From assembly GCF_026914265.1 (NCBI RefSeq), contig NC_069124.1, positions 14,653,088-14,717,087 on the forward strand: 64,000 nt of DNA. Reading direction: 5' to 3'. Made by a program: the position numbers and the translations under genes. Position 1 is the first letter of the stretch, and each line of letters opens with the position of its first letter. This document shows, piece by piece, positions 38,543 to 64,000 of the stretch. The notes beneath the pieces were generated by a model that saw only the letters and a program-made list of their open reading frames with translations, was not told where the DNA came from and did not search any database. This DNA comes from Mya arenaria. Its lineage: Eukaryota > Mollusca > Bivalvia > Myida > Myidae.

Positions 38543-39665
38543 TTGTTGACCGCTAGACTGCTGTTTGAATACTATATAGGGTATATTGTTAAACGGTCTA
38601 CTGCTGTTTAGATGCTATATAGGATATATTGTTGACCGTTCTACTGCTGTTTAGATACTATATAGAGTCTTTTGTTGACCGGTCTACTGCTGTATAGATA
38701 CTATATAGAGTCTATTGTTGACCGGTCTACTGCTGTTTAGATACTATATAGGGTATATTGTTGACCGGTCTACTGCTGTTTAGATACTATATAGAGTCTA
38801 TTGTTGACCGGTCTACTGCTGTTTAGATACTATATAGAGTATATTGTTGACCGGTCTACTGCTGTTTAGATACTATATAGAGTCTTTGGTTGACCGGTCT
38901 ACTGCTGTATAGATACTATATAGGGTCTTTTGTTGACCGGTCTACTGCTGTTTAGATACTATATAGGGTCTTTTGTTAACCAATGTATTGCTGTTTAGAT
39001 ACTATATAGAGTCATTTATTTGACCGGTCTACTGCTGTATAGATACTATATATGGTCTTTTGTTGACCTATGTCTTGCTGTTTAGATACTATATAGGGTC
39101 TATTGTTGACCGGTCTACTACTGTTTAGATACTACATAGGGTCTTTTGTTGACCGGTCTACTGCTGTATAGATACTATATAGGGTCTTTTGTTGACCAAT
39201 GTATTGCTGTTTAGATACTATATAGAGTCTTTTGTTGACCGGTCTACTGCTGTATAGATACTATATAGAGTCTTTTGTTGACCGGTCTATAGCTGTTAAG
39301 ATACTATATAGAGTCTGTTGTTGACCGGTCGTCTGCTGTTTAGATACTATATAGAGTCTGTTGTTGACCGGTCTACTGCTGTTTAGATACTATATAGAGT
39401 CTTTTGTTGACCGGTCTACTGCTGTATAGATACTACATAGGGTCTATTGTTGACCGGTCTACTGCTGTATAGATACTATATAGAGTCTTTTGTTGACCGG
39501 TCTACAGCTATTAAGATACTATATAGAGTCTTCTGTTGACCGGTCTACTGCTATTTACATACTATATAGAGTCTGTTGTTGACCAATGCATTGATGTTTA
39601 GATACTATATTGAGTATTTTGTTGACCGGTCTTCTGCTGTTTAGATACTATATAAGGTCTATGGT
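38543..39665. repeat. 43-bp satellite array, about 26 units
   Basis: The unit is GTTGACCGGTCTACTGCTGT followed by TTAGATACTATATAGAGTCTATT, with substitutions and a few indels between copies. Units at the right end are more diverged. The left edge continues on the other side of the LTR element: 33791-33801 reads GGGTATATTGT(T), the end of a unit. A related array with the same period lies at 63510-64000. Noncoding. Confidence 0.95.
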
Positions 39666-43014: not shown

Positions 43015-46000
43015 ATGGCTGCCACCAAATCTGGGTCAGTGAGATCAAAATCAAGCAAGTTTGTTGTAGCAGCGATTGATTTCGGCACGACATTTTCTGG
43101 ATATGCCTTTGCAATGCCAGATGAGTTTGAGGCAGACCCACCGAAGATAAGTGCAAATACCACATGGATCGCCGGTGGTCAGCTTATCTCACTGAAAATG
43201 CCGACCGTATTGTTACTAGACCCCAAACAAAACTTTGAGGCTTTTGGTTATGAAGCTGAAAACAGATATTATGAACTTGCCGCTGACGATGAGCACGAGG
43301 GATACTTCTACTTCCGGAGGTTTAAGATGAAGCTGTACAACTCCACAGTAAGTGTAAACTTTCAAAGGTTAAAATGTAGTAGTTGATTTTATCCTTTTTG
43401 ACGACATTCTTCTTTGCTGTCGTTGCATTACGGAATAGTTCATATGTAGGGTGTCGTGAACACTATATCCATAATTTCTAGAACATTGACCGTGACACAA
43501 TGATGGAAGATGAGGAGGGGAAAAAAATGAATGCGATAAAAGTGTTTAGCATTTGCATCAAGTACCTCATGGAGCAATTTATGAAGACGATTAAAAACAG
43601 GTAAAAGTGTTGAACATGTTTTTCTTATTTACTAAAACAACAGTCAAATTAGAATAATCGTGGTCGTGTCAATATCTTAAAAATATGTTAAAGAAAACCC
43701 ATCATATATATGTTTAACATGAAATTCATTTGTTCGCTTTATTTAAATAAACTGGCTAATTTCAAGCGTAATTGAACATGGTCGATATTTTTTTTTATTC
43801 ACAAACATACACCTTAGAATAGGTGTTAAACACCATACGACTGTTGTAATGCTTTAGGTTTGACCGGGTGACAGAGATATCGGAGAAAGACGTCGACTGG
43901 GTACTGACTGTAACAGCTATATGGAATAACAGTTCGAAACAGTTCATGAGAGAGGTCGCCGAAATGGTAAATGTTTGATGATATTCAGAGAAAGCGTTCA
44001 TCTGACGGTAAATGCTGGCGTACACAGGTATCTGTATTATTACCTTTAGTATTCATGTGCATATATGTGTAATTTATGCCAACAAATTTTATATTAAATA
44101 ATACAGAACACGTTTTTGACATATTATGACTTGCTTTTTACAATACTTCAGGCTGGCATCAAGAAGGACTCATTAACCATTGTACTTGAGCCGGAAGCTG
44201 CGTATTTATTTTGCAAGCATCTTCCTATCGAGCAGCTAAACATGACCGGAGCTTCTTTGTCTCAGTCCCAAATGTCACCTTTCTCAACTGGTCAACGCTA
44301 TATGGTGGTCAATGCTGGAGGTTGGTTCATTTTTGTGTTCAAATGTAATCGTTGTGAAATAACTCATAGATATTCATTCGTAATATGGAACTTTTTAGTT
44401 ATTTCGCCACAAAACATAATTATACATGCAGCAGATGTGGTCTACTGAGATTGGCCCTGACAGTACATGTGATCATGTAGATTAACTGATTTACTGATGT
44501 TTTACGTGTCGTTTCTAGGTGTTTCCGTGAATATCAACGTTATCGAGTTGGTGGGAGAAGGGCAACTAAAGGTGCTTAACATGACCAGTGGTGGGCCTAG
44601 GGGAGAAACTCGTGTTGACGAAGCATTCGAAGATTTCGTGAGGAAACTTGTTGGTACGTTATTGAATAAAGATACTTTTGTGCGCATGAATTTAGTTGTC
44701 ATAGTTTTAATTTAATTTCTATATGTATTGGTTTCAAGAAACTTGTTTTTTTTTGGTTGTATTTCTTGTTTCTGTTTTTATCCAACTAAATTATGCGTAA
44801 ACCTTACAGATGAGCCAAGCGCGGCACCGCCTCAAAACTAAATATTTTAAAGTATAATTGCATGCATTTTATTCTGACATTTGAAAACAGCAACTTCAAG
44901 TAAATCGTTAATCAAAGATCATTTAACCCATTTAATCATGGAAATACAAGGCTATCCTTGAAAACGGTGTATGTTCCCCGACAAGTATCTCAGAAACTCT
45001 TTGAACAAATTATTGCGCGTCATGACATGGCCAAAAAACATTTGGTGAAATGCACAAAACAGTTTGTTAAACGATAAATGTGATGAAATTTGAAAGTAAA
45101 AAAAGTATGGAAGATATATGATCTATCACGAGTCGTCATTTATCAAACTATTTTATTCAACCAGTTCATGAAATATGTAAGTAAGCGAACCTTACTAACC
45201 TTTTTTTGATGAGGCAAAAAATGTTAACTGGTATTTGTAAAATATGATGACGAGTGTCAGATTCCTTTAATAACATGTTGTTGTTTTCAATAAAAAGTAG
45301 CAAAAACGACCTGCCTGTTTAACTGCTCTATTGATGAGCCGAATACCACAAAGTAGTGTCCCCACTACATGCGTTGCAGAAATGTAGTACCCAGAAAAAT
45401 TTAAAACCACACATTCATCCGATCGGTATAATTCCGTTTTTAAGTTGAATGCATACTATAAAGACGATATCCAGTGAGAATTACTAGAAAACCCCTTTAC
45501 TTTAATGGAAAGTTGCTTTCTTTAAGATTGTTAAGTCACATTCATGGTGTCATTTCCTGTTAAAGAAAACATTATCGAACATATTCAAAAAATGTTTTTC
45601 AGGAAATAAAGACAAAACACAACATGTACCTCTTACGATTTAAAAGAATGTTACGACTGTGTTAAACATTGCCAACTTCGGAGAAATCCGCTGAAGCGAA
45701 AGTGCCTATAGAGTTATATAGGGAAAATATGGTTAAACAGTTCTCACGACTTAGTCTTTCAAAGATCAACTTACTTCCTACATACATGTTAGGATAATTC
45801 TTGCCCATGAAGATGATGGTTTTGTATTAATAGCACGATTTTTACATTTTGGTCCTTTTTAAGGGTTTTGTTGGTCATTAAAAGTTCCATTGAAATAAGA
45901 AGGAGGTAAAAATTGTTTTGCTATTTAAAGTTTATTAATATACAATAATGGTTTTATGGCCCACCCCGCTGCGTATTCACAGCAAGATAGAAATAATCCA

Positions 46001-48010
46001 TCCGCAAGGTTATGACACTGACACATGTGCAACAAAGATTGTCATTTATAGCAATGAAATTATTCCATAACAATTTCGGATTTTTTTCCTTTTGTCATTA
46101 TTACATAATTTAAATTATATATGATACTCGATTATTCATTTTCATTAGTAGTTAAAATATCATATATTGTTTTTTGGGTAAAAAAGAAAGTCATATATTT
46201 AGCAAAAATTATTCCCATTTTTAATCGCAATCATTATTACAGGCAGTTAAAACGTAACACTTTTCTTATAAAATATTAATGTTTCAAGTTTCATTAGCAA
46301 TTTTGGAAATACATATGGGCTATGAAACATAATAAATATGGGTATTCAAAGATAATAATTTACATATCTACATCGAGTCAACATGTTCATTAGTAATGTA
46401 ATGTTCTAATTCTTAATGGTAAACATTTTGGTCAACCATTTTGCACTCAACAAAACATGTTTATAAATTTAGCGTAAATATAATTATCTAAATTAGGCAA
46501 GAAATGTGTTGCATGGAATTTTGTCAGAATATTTTTAGTAACAAGTGCACTAGGTTAACATAACGTGTCGAAATACCATGTTAAATCAACGGTTTGTTAT
46601 GGAATAAAAGTGTATACCTGTCTTATTGCCAATACAACAATAATGACATTTTAACTTGTATCGTTAAAGACCGGTACTAAATGATAGCAACTGCAATTAA
46701 TATTTCATTTTAGCTGTTCCTTTCCGAAATTTCACACCCAATTTTGTGTTACACTGATATTAGAAAAAATACCAAACTGTTAAAATAAAGGTGTTGAAAT
46801 GGCCCCAATTCAATTTTTTGATAAACGATCAATTATAGACTTCAACAGAAAGACACGGACTATAATATGTAAAAGAAGTAAGTTTCTCAGAGATGATTTG
46901 ATATTTCAGTACTTTATCAACTAACTATTCCCGTATAAAACAGCTCTACCTAATTCAGCTAAATCTCAAATCGTCCAAAACTGAAATTTTTTATCGCAAC
47001 TTATAATAAAAGGACGGGTCAACTTTATGCCCCTCATAAATTCTGTATGTCTTATCTGCCTTAATCTTACACTGCGTCCAGTAGATAAATACGTGCTTAA
47101 CTAGCGTATCTTAACGCTACTATTGCACTAAGAGGAGAAATCGATAGAGACCGTCGTTAGCCTGATAAGCTCTAAAGTTGGCAATGAAAATTCATCATCA
47201 ATACAAAATGAGGAATACATGTATAACTTGCAAGAATATTGCCAATCAAGGAATTAATTTTGCCAATTCATTTGTTTACAACACATGCGTTATACAGCAG
47301 AGATTGTCATGTCTTTATTAAAACGGAAACAATGTATAGCATGTGATAGAAAGTATAAAACGTGTTTTTGGACGAGTGGAACTATTCTACCCTCTGCATA
47401 ACTCGTTTCAGGCTTTCATACTGGTAAGACATGAACTTTACTTATAATCTCTATTAAAGGAACTTCAAACGCAATGTTTTGATTTCAGGAAAGGAAGTTT
47501 TTGACAAGTTCAAGAAGACATGTGCTGAAGATTTTGTTGAACTACAAAGGCAGTTCGAGACAAGGAAACGTGGCATAAAGCACGACAAAAACGGGAAAGA
47601 AACGATCAATATTCCGGTTGCTTTGACAGAAATTTATATAAATAAAACAAAGAAAACCATGGACGAGGCGGTTAAGCAGTTTCAAGGCAATTTGACATGG
47701 ACTGCTGGAAAATTGCGCATAAATTGCGAATTCGTGAGAGGATGGTTTAAAGACACCTGTGATAATACAGTTAAAAATGTACGGGATCTATTCAAACAAC
47801 CTGCAATGCTCAGTTGCAAGACCATACTTCTTGTCGGTGGATTTGCGGAGTCACCGGTGCTACAACAAGCTTTTCGAGATAACTTTCCCGACATGCGGCT
47901 CATCGTGCCTGAAGAAGCTGGACTTGCAGTGCTCAAGGGCGCCGTTCTGTTTGGCCATCTCAAACCATATCTTAGCACCCTGCACTGTTCCTCAGATTGT
48001 TATTCTGAAG
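43015..48010 (+). CDS. HSPA12-like Hsp70 nucleotide-binding module 1, six exons
   Basis: HSPA12 proteins are atypical Hsp70s with an actin-fold ATPase. Exons at 43015-43347, 43482-43600, 43858-43966, 44152-44320, 44519-44653 and 47489-48010 join in phase to 462 codons plus 1 nt. The start follows a TTTACATTTAG acceptor and gives MAATKSGSVRSKSSKFVVAA. Seen in order: phosphate-1 loop IDFGTTFSGYAF, VDWVLTVTAIWNNSSKQFM, VLEPEAAYLFC, a phosphate-2 loop VVNAGGVSVNINV, SGGPRGETRVDEAFEDF, and adenosine motif TILLVGGFAESPVLQ. Phosphate-2 is degenerate against the usual VDAGGGTVD (Asp to Asn twice, Gly to Val). After GAVLFGH the sequence leaves the family pattern and ends in a GAAG|GTAAGT donor, so about 125-150 C-terminal residues of the family are missing. 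It may continue by splicing into module 2 at 51025; otherwise it stops at 48088-48090 by read-through. Confidence 0.85.
44654..47488 (+). other. 2.8-kb intron of HSPA12-like module 1
   Basis: AT-rich sequence between GTACGT and TTTCAG splice sites. No exon, repeat boundary or RNA recognised. The matching intron of module 2 is only 290 bp. Confidence 0.6.
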
Positions 48011-48419
48011 GTAAGTTTAATTTAAACAAAAATGCATTTGTCATTGAAGATATACGACGTATTATAATGCATGGGTTTGGTGCCTGGTAGGCTTAAATAA
48101 GATAATATGAGTCCGTTTTATATGGTCCTTCAATAATATTGCAGTAATTTTACCTCATGTGGTGACTGCGAAAACAACAGCTTTTTTTAAATCCACACAG
48201 CGGTTTCTGCTCATTAACCAACCATACAATAATAGAGGGTAGCAATTTGACATAAACAATATATCACTCAGAAAATGCATGCTCCAGACCTTTAATATTT
48301 GGGTATTCACCAAAAGTGTTTAAATTATGCTCCTGGGGTCAAAGATGGACATGTCCTGGGGGTCTCGGGGTTTTTACATACTTGTGTAGAAAAATATTCG
48401 AAAACCTTTTTTTAACCGC

Positions 48420-49800
48420 AATCCCCTCTTGATATTTGGTTTGTAGCCCAATTGTAGTGGTTAGTAACTACCTACATCTATAGAAACCAATAAATTCCTA
48501 CGCAACCAATGACGTACTTAGCAACCAATATCTTTCATATTAACATTTTACTTACTAAGAACGTATGATTTTCGTAGCGACAATGACGTCCTTGAAAACA
48601 CTTACCTTTTTAGCATTTAATGACATCCTTAGCAACAAATGATTTTTATCATCGGCATACTACCCTAGAGATAACATTCTTCCTTAGCAATCAATGACTT
48701 TCTTAGTAACCACTTACTTCCTGAGTAACCAATTACATCATAACCAACCAATAACCTCCTTTAAAATCAAACTACCTTAGCAATTACCGTCATCTATAGC
48801 AACCAAAGCCTTCATAAGCCACCAATTACTGCCTGGGCAACTACTTACTTTCTTGAGCAACAATTGACGTATTAAGAGGCGGTAATCGCGAGGTACATTG
48901 GTTTGATACCAGGCCCTAAAAATGTCAGCGCCTTATGAGACAGAATGCAATTATGTTCCTTTTCTTTCCATTAATAAACAATTAAATTTCCTAACATTGA
49001 CCATGCTTCCAGCGCCCAATTTTCTCTGTAATTTGGTACTTAAATTCATTAATTACTTAATATAACTTTTCTTTGGACGTTTGGGGCTGTTCATGGGATT
49101 GTTTATCGGTTTAAGAAAGACACACATAAAACATATACAATTGTGTATTGCTTGGTTCGGATAATATTTCGTTGATGCTTGGTTCACAAAATAGTTTTAG
49201 CATCATTTCATCAAGTTACGTACGTTACTGTGGGAACATAAGTTAGGGGATATCTATTGGTATACACATGTTTTATGAAAAGTTCTGTAACGAAATTGCG
49301 TATAATAAAAACGAAAATTTGCACTCAAAAAATGGACAGTTCCTCCTTGGTATGAACATGTCCGCAGCACATTTAGCCTCGATTCAAATCTTGTGACACA
49401 CATTCCGAGTAAACTACAAAACTGTTCGGCATAACGAAGGTACCGATTTACAGGGGAAATTCGGCGCTGGAACATGGTAAGTGTTAGGATTTTTTTAAAT
49501 ATTGAGAGAAACAAAATTACATACCGTTTCACTGGGCGCTGACATGTTTTAGTGCCTGGTATCAAAACAATGTACCATGTGATTACCGCCCCTGTTTCTA
49601 AGCAACCAATGACATATAGAGCAACAGTCGGCTTCCTTAGCAGTCACAGTAATCTTTAGCAATGGCAGCTATAGGAACAACTAGCTGACAATTAATATCT
49701 TGACTTTGCTAGCAATACTCTCGGTTTCCCTATACATCGACCGACCTCTTGATCAATCATCCATTTATCAGCAACCACTTAATTCCTCAGCAAGAAACAA
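48420..49800. repeat. Decayed minisatellite of AGCAACCAATGAC-type units, interrupted
   Basis: Words such as AGCAACCAATGAC, AGCAACAAATGA, AGCAATCAATGAC and AGTAACCAATTAC, often followed by (A/T)TCCTTAG, recur every 20-30 bp from about 48455 to 48875. They resume from about 49600 to 49800 after an inserted DNA element. Units are too diverged for a fixed period. Intergenic, or an intron if the two HSPA12 modules form one gene. Confidence 0.65.
48878..49590. mobile_element. Foldback-type DNA transposon with long terminal inverted repeats
   Basis: GGCGGTAATCGCGAGGTACA, then TTGGTTTGATACCAGG and ATGTCAGCGCC at the left are mirrored at the right by GGCGCTGACATG, CCTGGTATCAAAACAATGTA and CCATGTGATTACCGCC, giving arms of about 55 bp. 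A second inverted pair lies farther in (CCATGCTTCCAGCGCC against GGCGCTGGAACATGG). It inserted into the degenerate minisatellite. No transposase was seen. Confidence 0.75.
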
Positions 49801-50308
49801 CTAGTTTAGCAATCGTTGACTCGTTGGTCACTTCAATCGGTTCAGGTCAGGGTCATTTTGAACGTCTTGTTTTATTTTGTTTTTATTGTTTTGGTGTATG
49901 TGTAGGACAAAATCAATCGTGCAAAATCGGCGTTTCTTGCAAAATAATTGAAATGGACCGAGTTCAAAATGGCAACACCGATCATGTCGTTTTCCGGCTC
50001 CGATTCGTCATTTCATCATTTTTTTCTCGCCATTATGGTAAAAGTGAGGTTGAGTACTCAAATAAGTTTTAACATACATCCCAGGGCCAACATTTATCAC
50101 ATTAAATATTTTCGCAACATATATACATAAAATAAAGATGTTTTGATACATGCAGATGAAGTCTGTCGTTGTAGTTTAAGTGTCTGGAAGGCCTTAACAT
50201 TGTGCCTCTATACACTGTATTCATCATATGCTTTGCTACTCGGCATACCCGTGTCGTTGACATTGCACTGACACTGACACTAGCCGTTGTTGTAAATGAA
50301 GTATGATA

Positions 50309-50610
50309 ATGCACCAGTCAGTTGTAAACACGGCCCCAAAGGTCCGGGGTATATCGGGGACTTTGACTTTCGGTCCAGCCAATCCCAGGTCCCCGCAAGG
50401 GACAAGCTGCTGGTAAAATCCCCGCAAAATGCCCATCGCACACCGGGGAACGGCAATGCCCATTCCTCGCTATTTTCGGCGCGAAAACAAAACCGACGCA
50501 TTCACTGGGCACTGCGGGGACACCTGGATGGTAAAAATACGGCCCATTTCCCTCGCTATCCCCGGTATACCCACGGACCTTGGGGTCGTGGTTACAATTG
50601 ACTTGTGCAT
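50309..50610. mobile_element. GC-rich palindromic MITE
   Basis: ATGCACCAGTCAGTTGTAAA, then CACGGCCCCAAAGGTCCG and GGGTATATCGGGGA at the left are mirrored by TATCCCCGGTATACCC, CGGACCTTGGGGTCGTG and GTTACAATTGACTTGTGCAT at the right. GC content is far above the surroundings. Inner arms pair as well (GGTCCCCGCAAGG region against GGGCACTGCGGGGACACC). Frames on both strands are by-products of the palindrome and do not encode a protein. Confidence 0.75.
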
Positions 50611-51024
50611 AAAGAATACATAATTGGCAACAAGATGACAATGTTCGCTAATTCTTTAACCGTAATTTAAGGGGCACAATACAGGTTGGTGCAAAACATT
50701 TTAATGCATTATTATGTTTCACTTATTCTACTTTAATGATTAACGCAAAAATCCATATGATTTGTGTACAGATACAAAATTATAGCATTTATAAATGTTT
50801 TCTTGCCACAAATTTCCTATTTAACAAATTCGCCAAATGTTCGCTGATATTTGTTTATCATATGCCTTTTTATTTCAGTCATTAAAGTCTATTCAGTTAA
50901 ATATAATACTGCATTAAATAATGAAATAGTAATGCAATATATACATAAACAATGCTGAACAGTTGCTCGCGATAAAAATATTTAAATTATCTTAATTATG
51001 ATAATTCTTAATTCCAAATTACAG

Positions 51025-54000
51025 ATAAGGAAACGAGTACCAAACCAGTTCAAACGATTATTGTTGCTGCAATAGACTTCGGATCGGCGTTCTCAGGATT
51101 CGCCTTTGCAGTAAGAGATGACTTGAAAACTGTCAGTGATAATCCGAAAATCAGCACTGGGACGGGGTTTGTGAGTGGACAACTGATTTCCCATAAAACT
51201 CCCATAGTGCTTTTGCTTAACCCAGACAAGTCATTTGCGGCGTTTGGGTATGCAGCAGAAGAAAAGTACAGTAATTTGTTTGAAGATGACAGGGAAAGAA
51301 AAAGCTCAAGCCACAGATCTTACTACTACTTCCGGCGCTTGAAGATGAGGCTGTATAGCTCAGACAGGCCTATGGTGTGTTTATAAAGTGGTTTATGTCT
51401 GTTGTTAGAAGGATAAAACAAATGTATATGATTGTATTTGATGTCAAAAAGCGTGTAAGCTTATTCATGCATAATTACAACCTTTTTTATATTGTTTTTT
51501 GCTTTAACAACTTTAATATATACCGAATTGCAAAAGCTACGATATGACATAGGGTAAAACACCAGCTTGGGATTTACCATTTCAACATTAAAACGGATTG
51601 ATAAGTGTATATCTTCTGGTGCATGTATATAAACATCAAATGATAAAACAAATCTATTAACACAATTCAATTTATCCAGCATTTTAACACACCAGTTAAT
51701 ATTGAATGAACATGTTGGTTGGTTACATTTACAGACGTTGAGCAGAGATGTTGAAATTCTGGACGAGCATGGGAAGAGAATGAAGGCAAATGAAGTCTTC
51801 AGCATTTGCATCAAATATTTAGCGGATGAGTTTATGAAGCTGGGAAGAAACAGGTAAAGTGATAGCTGTCAAACGAACTTAGGAAAGCTATACAATATTA
51901 GTTTTAATGTGATATATTTCTTACATTATCACTAACCTGATTGCATAATTAGCTCATGGCGGTATGCAAAATGACACCTTTGATAGTTTGCCACAGGTTA
52001 ATGTTAATTTATATATAACAATTTAAGTGTCATTTTAGTATTTCTACGTTATTTGATTAAATTGCTGATTCTCTCTAGGTTACCAGATTTGACCAAAGAC
52101 GATGTCCATTGGGTATTGACAGTTCCTGCCATTTGGTCTGACAGTTCAAAGCAGTTCATGCGAGTTGCAGCTGAGCTAGTATGCACGTTTAGTAACAACC
52201 TTGTTTTCAGCTCACTTAATTTCTATCACCCTATCTTTCAAAGGTCATATTGAATGACATTAACTTATGTTGCTCAGGGATCATTTAATACGAATCTCAC
52301 TTAGGCCTGTGGTATGATTGAGTCGTTGACAGAGTGGAAAGTTTCATTATTTTACAAAATTGATTATTTAAGTCAAATTCATACTTAGGATTTAAGGTTT
52401 GAGCTTTCGCAGAATCGCCCTTTCAGAATGTATTTTACAAATATAGGCCGGGCTAGATGGAAATCGCCTTACAATAGCTCTTGAACCAGAGGCAGCATCG
52501 CTGTTTTGTATGCGTGTACCGATCAAGAGCCAAGCAGAAGCGTCCACAACAGTGTCACAGTTTCAAGAGGGGACGAAGTACATGGTAGTTGATGCAGGAG
52601 GTAGGCTTATTGGTAGCAAACTCAATCGGAAATGTTTGCAATTTATTTTATTGAAACAGTATATGACATATATGTTTCTAATCCAATACGTTTCCATGCG
52701 GAATATAAGGAATACATATGGACAAAAGGTAAAAACACTTTTTTAACAAATAGTGAAATACTTGAAAGATTAGAGCTCGTAAACTGAGTTACTCTTCTAC
52801 CATATGATCACTGACCACCGCATTGACTTTCAAACGTCGAATGATCAAAATTGTAACACGTTTGTTTTCTTGTGTGTATCTGCATTGATTGTTTGGACTT
52901 TGATATTTGTGTCATTACACTTACTCATTGAAAAACTCTAGATCATTCGCCCTCTTCATGTTTCAGCCTGTTAATGTTTAGAATTTGCCAATGGAAATAC
53001 TCTTAAAAAACTCATTTTTAGATCTAGAAAAAAACATGTTCCTTGAACTGAAATCTTTTTTCGGTTACTTGTGTTTTAAACAGCGTAAACAACAGCTTCA
53101 GTTACAGGAATTGATCCACGTTTGATTAGCCAAGATGGTTCTTTCATCTAAACAAATGTCAGTCATTATCACTTTCAGTATCACTGTTTGCCATTTAATA
53201 TCACTTTCTGTGATTTTCCGTGACTGCACCTCCAATGTAATTGGTGAAAAAATATCAATTGCTTTATTTAAGGTTTTATTTCCAGGAGGCACTGTAGATG
53301 TTATCGTGCACGAGATAGTTGGCGACAAAAAGCTGAAGGAACTGACGTCGGCCAGCGGAGGGCCATGGGGTGGTACAATGGTTGACAACGAATTCGATGC
53401 TTTTATGGAGACAATTTTCGGTTTGTATTGGCATATTGCATTAACCGTAAAGGACATAACATAAATATGAACCGTCATATATTATATCATTGCTTCCACA
53501 GTAACTACTTCTTGCCTGGCAGATTCTATCTCAATCAGCATAGAGTCTCAGTTGTTCAAGGTCAAGGGATTTGTTTAGAAATTAATTAATTTATTTAGAT
53601 ATTGTGAGTAAATTTTAAAAACGTCCATTAAGTAGTTGATAAAACTGTTTTTTATTTGCTAGTATACTTGTTTGTAAATGACAAAAGTATTCGTTAAGTT
53701 TATTTCGTAGGCAAAGACTTCTATTATCGGTTTAAAAACGAATGTGTAGGCGATTACACCGATCTTCATAGAGAGCTTGAACTGAAAAAGAGGAACGTAA
53801 ATTCAAACAACGATGATAAAGAAACCTTCTCATTGCCATTTGCTTTGCTGGAGTTGATGGACAAAAAAATGGCTACGTTAGTGGACCAACGGCTGCAAAT
53901 ATACAACGGCGATGTCTCTTTAAGGAGTGGAAAACTTAGGATTGCCAGCAAGATAATGAGAGGATGGTTCAAAGAATCCTGTTTGAAGACTACACAGCAC

Positions 54001-54631
54001 TTAAAGAGTATTTTGCAACAAAAAGTATGCGCTGGAACAAACACCATTTTGTTGGTGGGTGGTTATGCCGAGTCCCCAATGTTGCAAAGTGAAATTAAAG
54101 ATGCATTCAGAGATAAAACAGTCATAATCCCGGATGAAGCCGGCTTGGCCGTATTAAAAGGCGCTGTTCTGTTTGGAAACGACCCTCTAGTTGTAGTATC
54201 AAGAATTGCAAGATGCTCCTATGGCATTTGTGTGTTCCGCGATTTTGACCCAAGGATACAAGGAACTTAAATGCAAGGATATCTTTGAAAAACATGTTCA
54301 AAGAGGTGACGAGCTTACCGTTGGACAGGCACAGTTGCACCAACGGTACTCTAAATTAGAAGCTGACCAAATCTCGTTTGTCCTGGATATATATACATCC
54401 ACCAATGCCGATCCAAGATTCGTTGATGATAAGGATTGTACGTACCTTGGATGCCTCGAGATAGAAGTTCCCCCAGAGGACAGCAAAGAAAATGGTATCA
54501 AAGTTAACATGACGTTTGGGGAAACAGAACTGGAGGTTGAAGCCAAAGATGAAAAATATGGCAAAACGAAAAAGGCTACGTTTGATTTTTTGGTAGACAA
54601 CCTCAACCTACAGTCAAATATTGCATTGTAA
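51025..54631 (+). CDS. HSPA12-like Hsp70 module 2, six exons, C-terminal frame change
   Basis: Exons at 51025-51374, 51735-51853, 52079-52178, 52447-52600, 53286-53420 and 53711 onward mirror module 1 exon by exon (119 and 135 nt exons are equal in length). There is no in-frame start: the first exon opens after TTACAG in phase 1 with (G)AT AAG GAA, and a stop lies upstream in frame. Motifs: phosphate-1 IDFGSAFSGFAF (Thr-Thr replaced by Ser-Ala), VHWVLTVPAIWSDSSKQFM, ALEPEAASLFC, canonical phosphate-2 VVDAGGGTVDVIVHE, and TILLVGGYAESPMLQ. After GICVFRDFDP the frame runs to a stop at 54268-54270. The family's C-terminal region (CKDIFEKHVQRG ... DIYTSTNADPRFV ... VNMTFGETELEVEAKDE) continues in another frame to 54629-54631, with no intron signals between. 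So either a frameshift (mutation or assembly error) or a truncated protein. It could be the second half of one gene with 43015-48010. Confidence 0.85.
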
Positions 54632-63509: not shown

Positions 63510-64000
63510 GCGGATGTCTATAGATATTATAGAATCAATTGTTGACGGGATATTGCTGTCTTGATACGTTATAGGATCTGTTGTTGACGGGTATATTGCC
63601 GCCTTGATACGTTATAGGATTTTGTATAACGAGATATTGCTGTCTTGATACGTTTTAGAATATATTGATGACGGGTTCATTTTTGTCTTTATACGTTATA
63701 GAATATATTGTTGTCGGATATATTGCCGTCTTGATACTTTATAGGATTTGTTGTTGACGGGTTATTGCTAACTTGATACGTCATTTAATCTATTGTTGAT
63801 TGAATATTGCTATCTTGATACGTTATAGAATCTATTGTTGACGGACAGAATTTTGTAAGGGTTAGATGATGTTGCTGTCTTGATTCGTTATAGAATCATT
63901 GTTGGCGGGTATATTGCTGTCTAGATACGTCATAGAATCTATTGTTGACGGGTATATTGCTGTCTCGATACGTTATAGGATCTTTTGTTGAAGGGTATGT
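63510..64000. repeat. 43-bp satellite array, diverged family, about 11 units to the window edge
   Basis: The unit is GTTGACGGGTATATTGCTGT followed by CTTGATACGTTATAGAATCTATT. It has the same length and the same order of words as the array at 38543-39665, but with fixed differences (GACGGG for GACCGG, ACGTTATAG for ACTATATAG). The array runs off the right edge. Confidence 0.93.

Follow-up and report, generated by a model that had tools for sequence, protein, structure and literature searches.

The window analysed here, a stretch of 64,000 nucleotides from the clam Mya arenaria (C3:14653088-14717087), carries two adjacent forward-strand modules, each with an Hsp70-type nucleotide-binding domain (NBD). 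Following the initial annotation, we presume both modules to be HSPA12-like; their database relatives are only distant Hsp70 and DnaK proteins. The initial annotation had described module 1 (43015-48010) as having an ATG, lacking the family C-terminus and ending in a phase-1 donor, and module 2, from 51025, as having no start codon, an in-frame stop upstream and a phase-1 acceptor, with the two joining in frame over 2,805 nt to a stop at 54270. All of these features were reproduced when the exon model was rebuilt (Table 1). The resulting model, hereafter copy A, has 12 exons and 11 introns, all GT-AG, and its joined coding sequence of 2,805 nt comprises 935 codons including the TAA, for a product of 934 aa. 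Translation keeps its frame across the module join (...CYSE-DKETSTK...); the first exon of module 2 follows TTACAG, in phase with the module 1 donor, and the in-frame stop lies just 5' of 51025. Aligned over 440 positions, the two modules show 47% identity, and their intron places match.

Table 1. Exons and associated features of the tandem gene pair in the window (copy A; window positions)
Feature	Position	Strand	Remarks
Exon 1, module 1	43015..43347	+	ATG; phosphate-1 loop DFGTTFSG; related exon at all six pairs and S2
Exon 2, module 1	43482..43600	+	
Exon 3, module 1	43858..43966	+	Acceptor 9 nt upstream of the acceptor of the other five copies
Exon 4, module 1	44152..44320	+	Exons 4-5 bear degenerate phosphate-2 loop NAGGVSVN
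Exon 5, module 1	44519..44653	+	Shares degenerate phosphate-2 loop NAGGVSVN with exon 4
Exon 6, module 1	47489..48010	+	End of NBD1, then linker of ~17 aa; phase-1 donor GAAG|GTAAGT
Junction intron	48011..51024	+	3,014 nt; C-terminal exon not found; no start exon above control
Exon 7, module 2	51025..51374	+	No ATG; phase-1 acceptor; phosphate-1 loop DFGSAFSG
Exon 8, module 2	51735..51853	+	
Exon 9, module 2	52079..52178	+	
Exon 10, module 2	52447..52600	+	Exons 10-11 bear intact phosphate-2 loop DAGGGTVD
Exon 11, module 2	53286..53420	+	Shares intact phosphate-2 loop DAGGGTVD with exon 10
Exon 12, module 2	53711..54270	+	End of NBD2, then early TAA in copy A
C-terminal domain coding sequence	54272..54631	+	Out of frame in A; in frame in B, C, E, and F (alternative exon 8 acceptor)

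Two further observations concern the window copy. At exon 3 (43858) the old acceptor AG has mutated, and a new in-frame AG lies upstream of it. Arrays of a 43-bp repeat flank the gene pair (window 38543-39654 and 63527-63998), with consensus units that share one orientation and agree at 33-34 of 41 positions; the repeat was not found near the other copies in the fetched stretches, whose flanks are short.

A genome search with the last exon of module 2 gave 494 candidates, of which 150 were scored, and among these there are six places on C3 where a truncated module 1 exon is followed 5.2-7.5 kb on by a module 2 exon. These six pairs, A (the window) to F, span ~262 kb and share ~83-95% DNA identity; since the copies are related, features common to them do not represent six independent events. 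Exon mapping recovered 12 exons in every pair, with an ATG in exon 1 of each module 1. Furthermore, in all six pairs module 1 lacks the family C-terminus and has a phase-1 GT donor, and module 2 lacks a start codon and has an in-phase AG acceptor. Copies B (1058 aa), C (1055 aa, with a stop five codons ahead of the usual end) and E (1059 aa) each have an unbroken reading frame that begins at the ATG, spans both modules and takes in the C-terminus up to the stop. Copy F is uninterrupted only if exon 8 begins at an AG 13 nt downstream, an alternative acceptor that is needed because of a 10-nt duplication, while in copy D one base breaks the frame of exon 2 and module 2 contains a stop. A seventh copy of module 2 (G, on C4) contains in-frame stops and is missing part of exon 7. 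We found no module 1 for it in 8.9 kb of DNA retrieved from its upstream side, and when the whole genome was searched at the DNA level with exon 6 of module 1, no match fell on C4. This lone module 2 has decayed.

The stop at 54270, where the initial annotation had ended the protein, is indeed present in copy A, but the family C-terminus persists behind it at 54272-54631 in another frame. Counted from the first base of exon 12, the family stop is reached after 921 nt in A, after 947 nt in E and after 950 nt in the other four copies (B, C, D and F). The net loss of 29 nt in A, aligned as 27 + 2, accounts for both the TAA and the out-of-frame C-terminal domain, and it rules out a one-letter sequencing slip as the origin of this stop. 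The predicted protein end at 54270 is valid for the window copy only.

The same genome search brought to light a large HSPA12-like family, with at least 150 scored matches to the last exon of module 2, many of them on C9, C14, C8 and C17. One further NBD exon (C8:17360572-17361030), 37-43% identical, has a stop after GAVLFGH and is seemingly cut at the same place; neither a C-terminal domain match nor a second NBD was found in the 7 kb fetched downstream of it, and it may represent either an NBD-only gene or a remnant. In addition, copies C and E are accompanied by a second partial C-terminal coding sequence past exon 12 (C3 about 14824638-14825088 and 14894892-14895295).

Standalone genes of six exons lie close by on the other strand, and three of them (S1, S2 and S3) were read. 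S2, at about 15.022-15.025 Mb of C3, encodes 589 aa, with the C-terminal domain in its last exon. It follows the same six-exon plan as module 1, to which it shows 77-81% identity over residues 1-442 (copies A, B, C and E); the DNA likeness between module 1 and S2 stops at window position 47957, where the NBD ends. We built a tree of the last NBD exon from 28 rows, namely 13 module rows and 15 of 19 other loci taken from the scored genome matches (five nearby standalone genes and ten others, with four loci that contain stops left out). Here, module 1 clusters with S2 (100/99) and module 2 by itself (100/100). Most simply, the fusion would have come before the amplification. Human HSPA12B has a 5'-UTR intron (PMC2266713). 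In S2 and all six copies of module 1, AG|AA stands directly ahead of the ATG, at the place of the AG|AT acceptor of module 2; an AG two bases ahead of the ATG was not seen in the standalone genes S1 and S3. As an AG precedes the ATG in S2 and the six module 1 copies, the module 2 acceptor is probably a former 5'-UTR-intron acceptor.

With Pfam PF00012 (Hsp70, cut-off 20.6 bits), the spliced sequences score 56.8 bits for A, 71.2 bits for B (in two stretches) and 59.4 bits for S2, while single exons fall under the cut-off. NCBIfam and PDB searches with S2 returned only distant DnaK and other Hsp70s. The predicted layout of the joined product is NBD1-linker-NBD2-C-terminal domain. The phosphate-2 loop of module 1 reads NAGGVSVN in A, NAGGVTVD in B, DAGGDTVS in C, DVGGVTVD in D and E, and DVGGATVD in F, so that the third glycine is missing in all six copies; S2 has DVGGGTVD. 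Module 2 has DAGGGTVD or DAGGGTID in A-E and NAGEGTID in F. Its phosphate-1 loop is GSAFSG in five of the six copies, with GSA replacing GTT, and GSTFSG in D. At the positions expected for the Hsp70 motifs, module 2 keeps the phosphate-2 and adenosine motifs in most copies. We take the roles of the phosphate-loop letters to be those known from work on Hsc70, and the loss of the phosphate-2 glycine in every copy suggests that NBD1 may be a weak or regulatory ATPase.

The open reading frame, its repetition and its constraint are seen in the sequence itself; that the two modules are spliced together at their junction we strongly infer. Four copies (A, B, D and E) share the donor GAAG|GTAAGT; C has GGAG|GTAAGT and F has GAAG|GTTTGT. 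On the acceptor side, CAG|AT stands in every copy except D, in which the flank has diverged but CCAG|CT holds the place and the phase. Ranked against 60 other junctions of these genes, the donor of F falls at the 40th percentile and the other five at the 88th-90th, while the acceptors are below average (12th-32nd percentile, with D under all 60); the scoring matrix was built from the same genes, and these ranks are therefore a rough guide only. Against 510 other AGs in four intervals, five of the six acceptors beat at least 99% and that of D beats 83%. Where module 1 has its ATG, the six copies of module 2 have AAG, CAG or AAA.

The interval between the modules measures 2.0-4.4 kb and is alignable among the copies, and a strongly conserved block is absent from it. 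If the pair were two genes, as the initial annotation had allowed, module 1 would be an NBD-only gene with a stop 21-26 codons past the donor, and module 2 a separate gene with an unseen first exon. Tandem genes are the rule in the C3 cluster, the intervals contain polyadenylation-like signals, and the read-through tail past the donor is open in all six copies, which would suit such an arrangement. Yet the position of its stop shifts (A and B have 26 codons ahead of it, C-F have 21), and the tail evolves like non-coding DNA, with 12 synonymous of 75 changes (16% vs 19% expected). In blastn and tblastn searches of the interval, no C-terminal domain was found, nor any terminal exon that could complete module 1. 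As to a first exon of its own for module 2, the A interval offers 69 candidate ATG...phase-1 GT exons, of which one, of 4 nt and with a weak donor, is kept in all six copies; this does not exceed the reverse-strand control, where the figure is 3 of 77, and candidates kept in at least five copies number 2 on the forward strand vs 9 on the reverse. An internal start was likewise rejected, as exon 7 has no Met ahead of the phosphate-1 loop, yet the rest of this exon is under constraint (of 457 changes, 193 are synonymous, 42% vs 21% expected). A shared promoter, another possible sign of two genes, was not seen either: DNA upstream of module 1 is unmatched in the intervals, where the sole upstream-DNA match is of 25 bases of S2 upstream DNA in copy C, though this test is weak because the upstream DNA of S1 and S2 is also unlike that of the pairs. 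Two separate genes are hence disfavoured, and we consider them very unlikely. Alternative transcripts might instead yield both an NBD-only and a fused product from one gene. Many genes use intronic polyadenylation, and the strong donor and the open read-through could accommodate it here. However, an NBD-only product of module 1 is possible only by reading into the intron, where the tail shows no visible constraint, and we regard this combination as unlikely.

The pairs could also be a decaying array of pseudogenes or near-pseudogenes from which no double protein is made. Frame-breaking lesions in A and D, and perhaps F, the stops in the C4 copy and the relaxed constraint on module 1 are in line with decay, but in B, C and E some 3.2 kb of coding sequence is uninterrupted, and the pattern of changes also argues against it. 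Indels were compared in ten pairings of five copies (A, B, C, E and F, with neither D nor G), and only introns of at most 1,500 nt and with length differences of at most 300 nt were used. The exons of module 1 show 2.5 events per aligned kb and those of module 2 show 1.0, counts which include compensating gap pairs and, in comparisons with A, its missing C-terminus, as against 27 and 24 in the respective short introns and 21 in the interval over its initial 800 nt. Indels are thus roughly ten- to twentyfold rarer in exons than in introns, at substitution identities of 0.89 and 0.92 for module 1 and module 2 exons, 0.88 / 0.86 for their short introns and 0.89 for the interval. Furthermore, dN/dS is below 1 in all 30 comparisons (15 pairs of A-F for each module) and significantly so in 29. 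It ranges over 0.44-0.67 for module 1 (each p<0.03, uncorrected, in pairs that are not independent) and over 0.21-0.70 for the module 2 NBD, where 14 of 15 pairs are significant and B-F is not; between module 1 and S2 it is 0.22-0.36. The scarcity of exon indels and the dN/dS values below 1 indicate that selection maintains the protein sequence of both modules, though less strictly in module 1, where constraint is relaxed. No constraint is visible in the linker of 18 codons that closes exon 6, where 15 of 61 changes are synonymous (25% vs 22% expected). Decay of the entire array is, in our estimation, highly improbable.

Six like pairs, three open copies, coding constraint, the lack of an alternative start or terminal exon and the decay of the lone module 2 on C4 support the proposal of the initial annotation that a single tandem gene encodes two NBDs. 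The kinship of the six copies, the weak donor of F, the below-average acceptors, the unconstrained linker, the relaxed constraint on module 1 and the lesions in A and D weigh against it. On balance, modules 1 and 2 very probably form one gene of 12 exons for a tandem HSPA12-like protein. Such a gene could have arisen from a single six-exon gene similar to S2 that was cut short where its NBD ends, so losing its C-terminal half, and that acquired a phase-1 donor, which would then have been spliced to the acceptor ahead of a second such gene. This acceptor would be the old 5'-UTR-intron acceptor, the ATG of module 2 would have been lost later, and the fused unit would have been copied in tandem to six. 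In the product, NBD2 and the C-terminal domain would constitute the ATP-driven part. NBD1, with its third phosphate-2 glycine gone, would be a weak or inactive ATPase and a cis regulator or fixed partner, loosely resembling the Hsp110-Hsp70 arrangement; this role in cis, as a regulator or partner with weak ATPase activity, we infer only weakly. It is a tentative idea, too, that the degenerate NBD1 might permanently control the active NBD2 and the substrate domain in cis, as a built-in exchange factor or as half of an obligate pseudo-dimer.

In the usual view of Hsp70, one ATPase domain drives one substrate domain. If two NBDs and one C-terminal domain are truly under selection together, with the first site degenerate, the clam gene would provide a natural test of NBD-NBD regulation in Hsp70s. 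It would also mean, if true, that new domain orders arise within the HSPA12 expansion of bivalves when a 5'-UTR acceptor becomes a coding one. Gene predictors may split or mis-join such genes, and bivalve HSPA12 gene counts may therefore be off.

By description, HSPA12A and HSPA12B likewise consist of a divergent Hsp70 NBD and a C-terminal part and are expanded in bivalves, where 73 and 57 copies are quoted for oyster and scallop in PMC10969875. The joined gene departs from this plan of one NBD and a C-terminal domain in having two NBDs, whereas S2 has one. Human HSPA12A and HSPA12B have one NBD and 12 coding exons according to PMC2266713, as against six exons per module in the clam gene. S2, the standalone sister within the clam, keeps its C-terminus and, in its one NBD, an intact DVGGGTVD loop; module 1 has lost both. 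Module 1 also resembles HSPA13/Stch, an Hsp70 NBD without a substrate domain (PMC12692333); HSPA13/Stch, however, is free-standing, while module 1 continues into a second NBD. The nearest printed statement found concerns Hspa12b2 of spotted sea bass, for which PMC8945262 reports two detected Hsp70 domains; these may be two matches inside one divergent NBD, in contrast to the two whole NBDs of the clam gene. Searches of open-licence PMC papers showed no double-NBD Hsp70 by title or the start of the abstract, which is weak evidence of its absence from print. We judge the tandem clam gene to be a new architecture variant of the Hsp70 family. A loose functional analogue may be the pair formed by Hsp110 and Hsp70, in which two Hsp70-type NBDs act on each other, one of them as exchange factor; there, the two NBDs belong to separate proteins, whereas in the clam they would be fused in one, and the likeness is one of analogy only.
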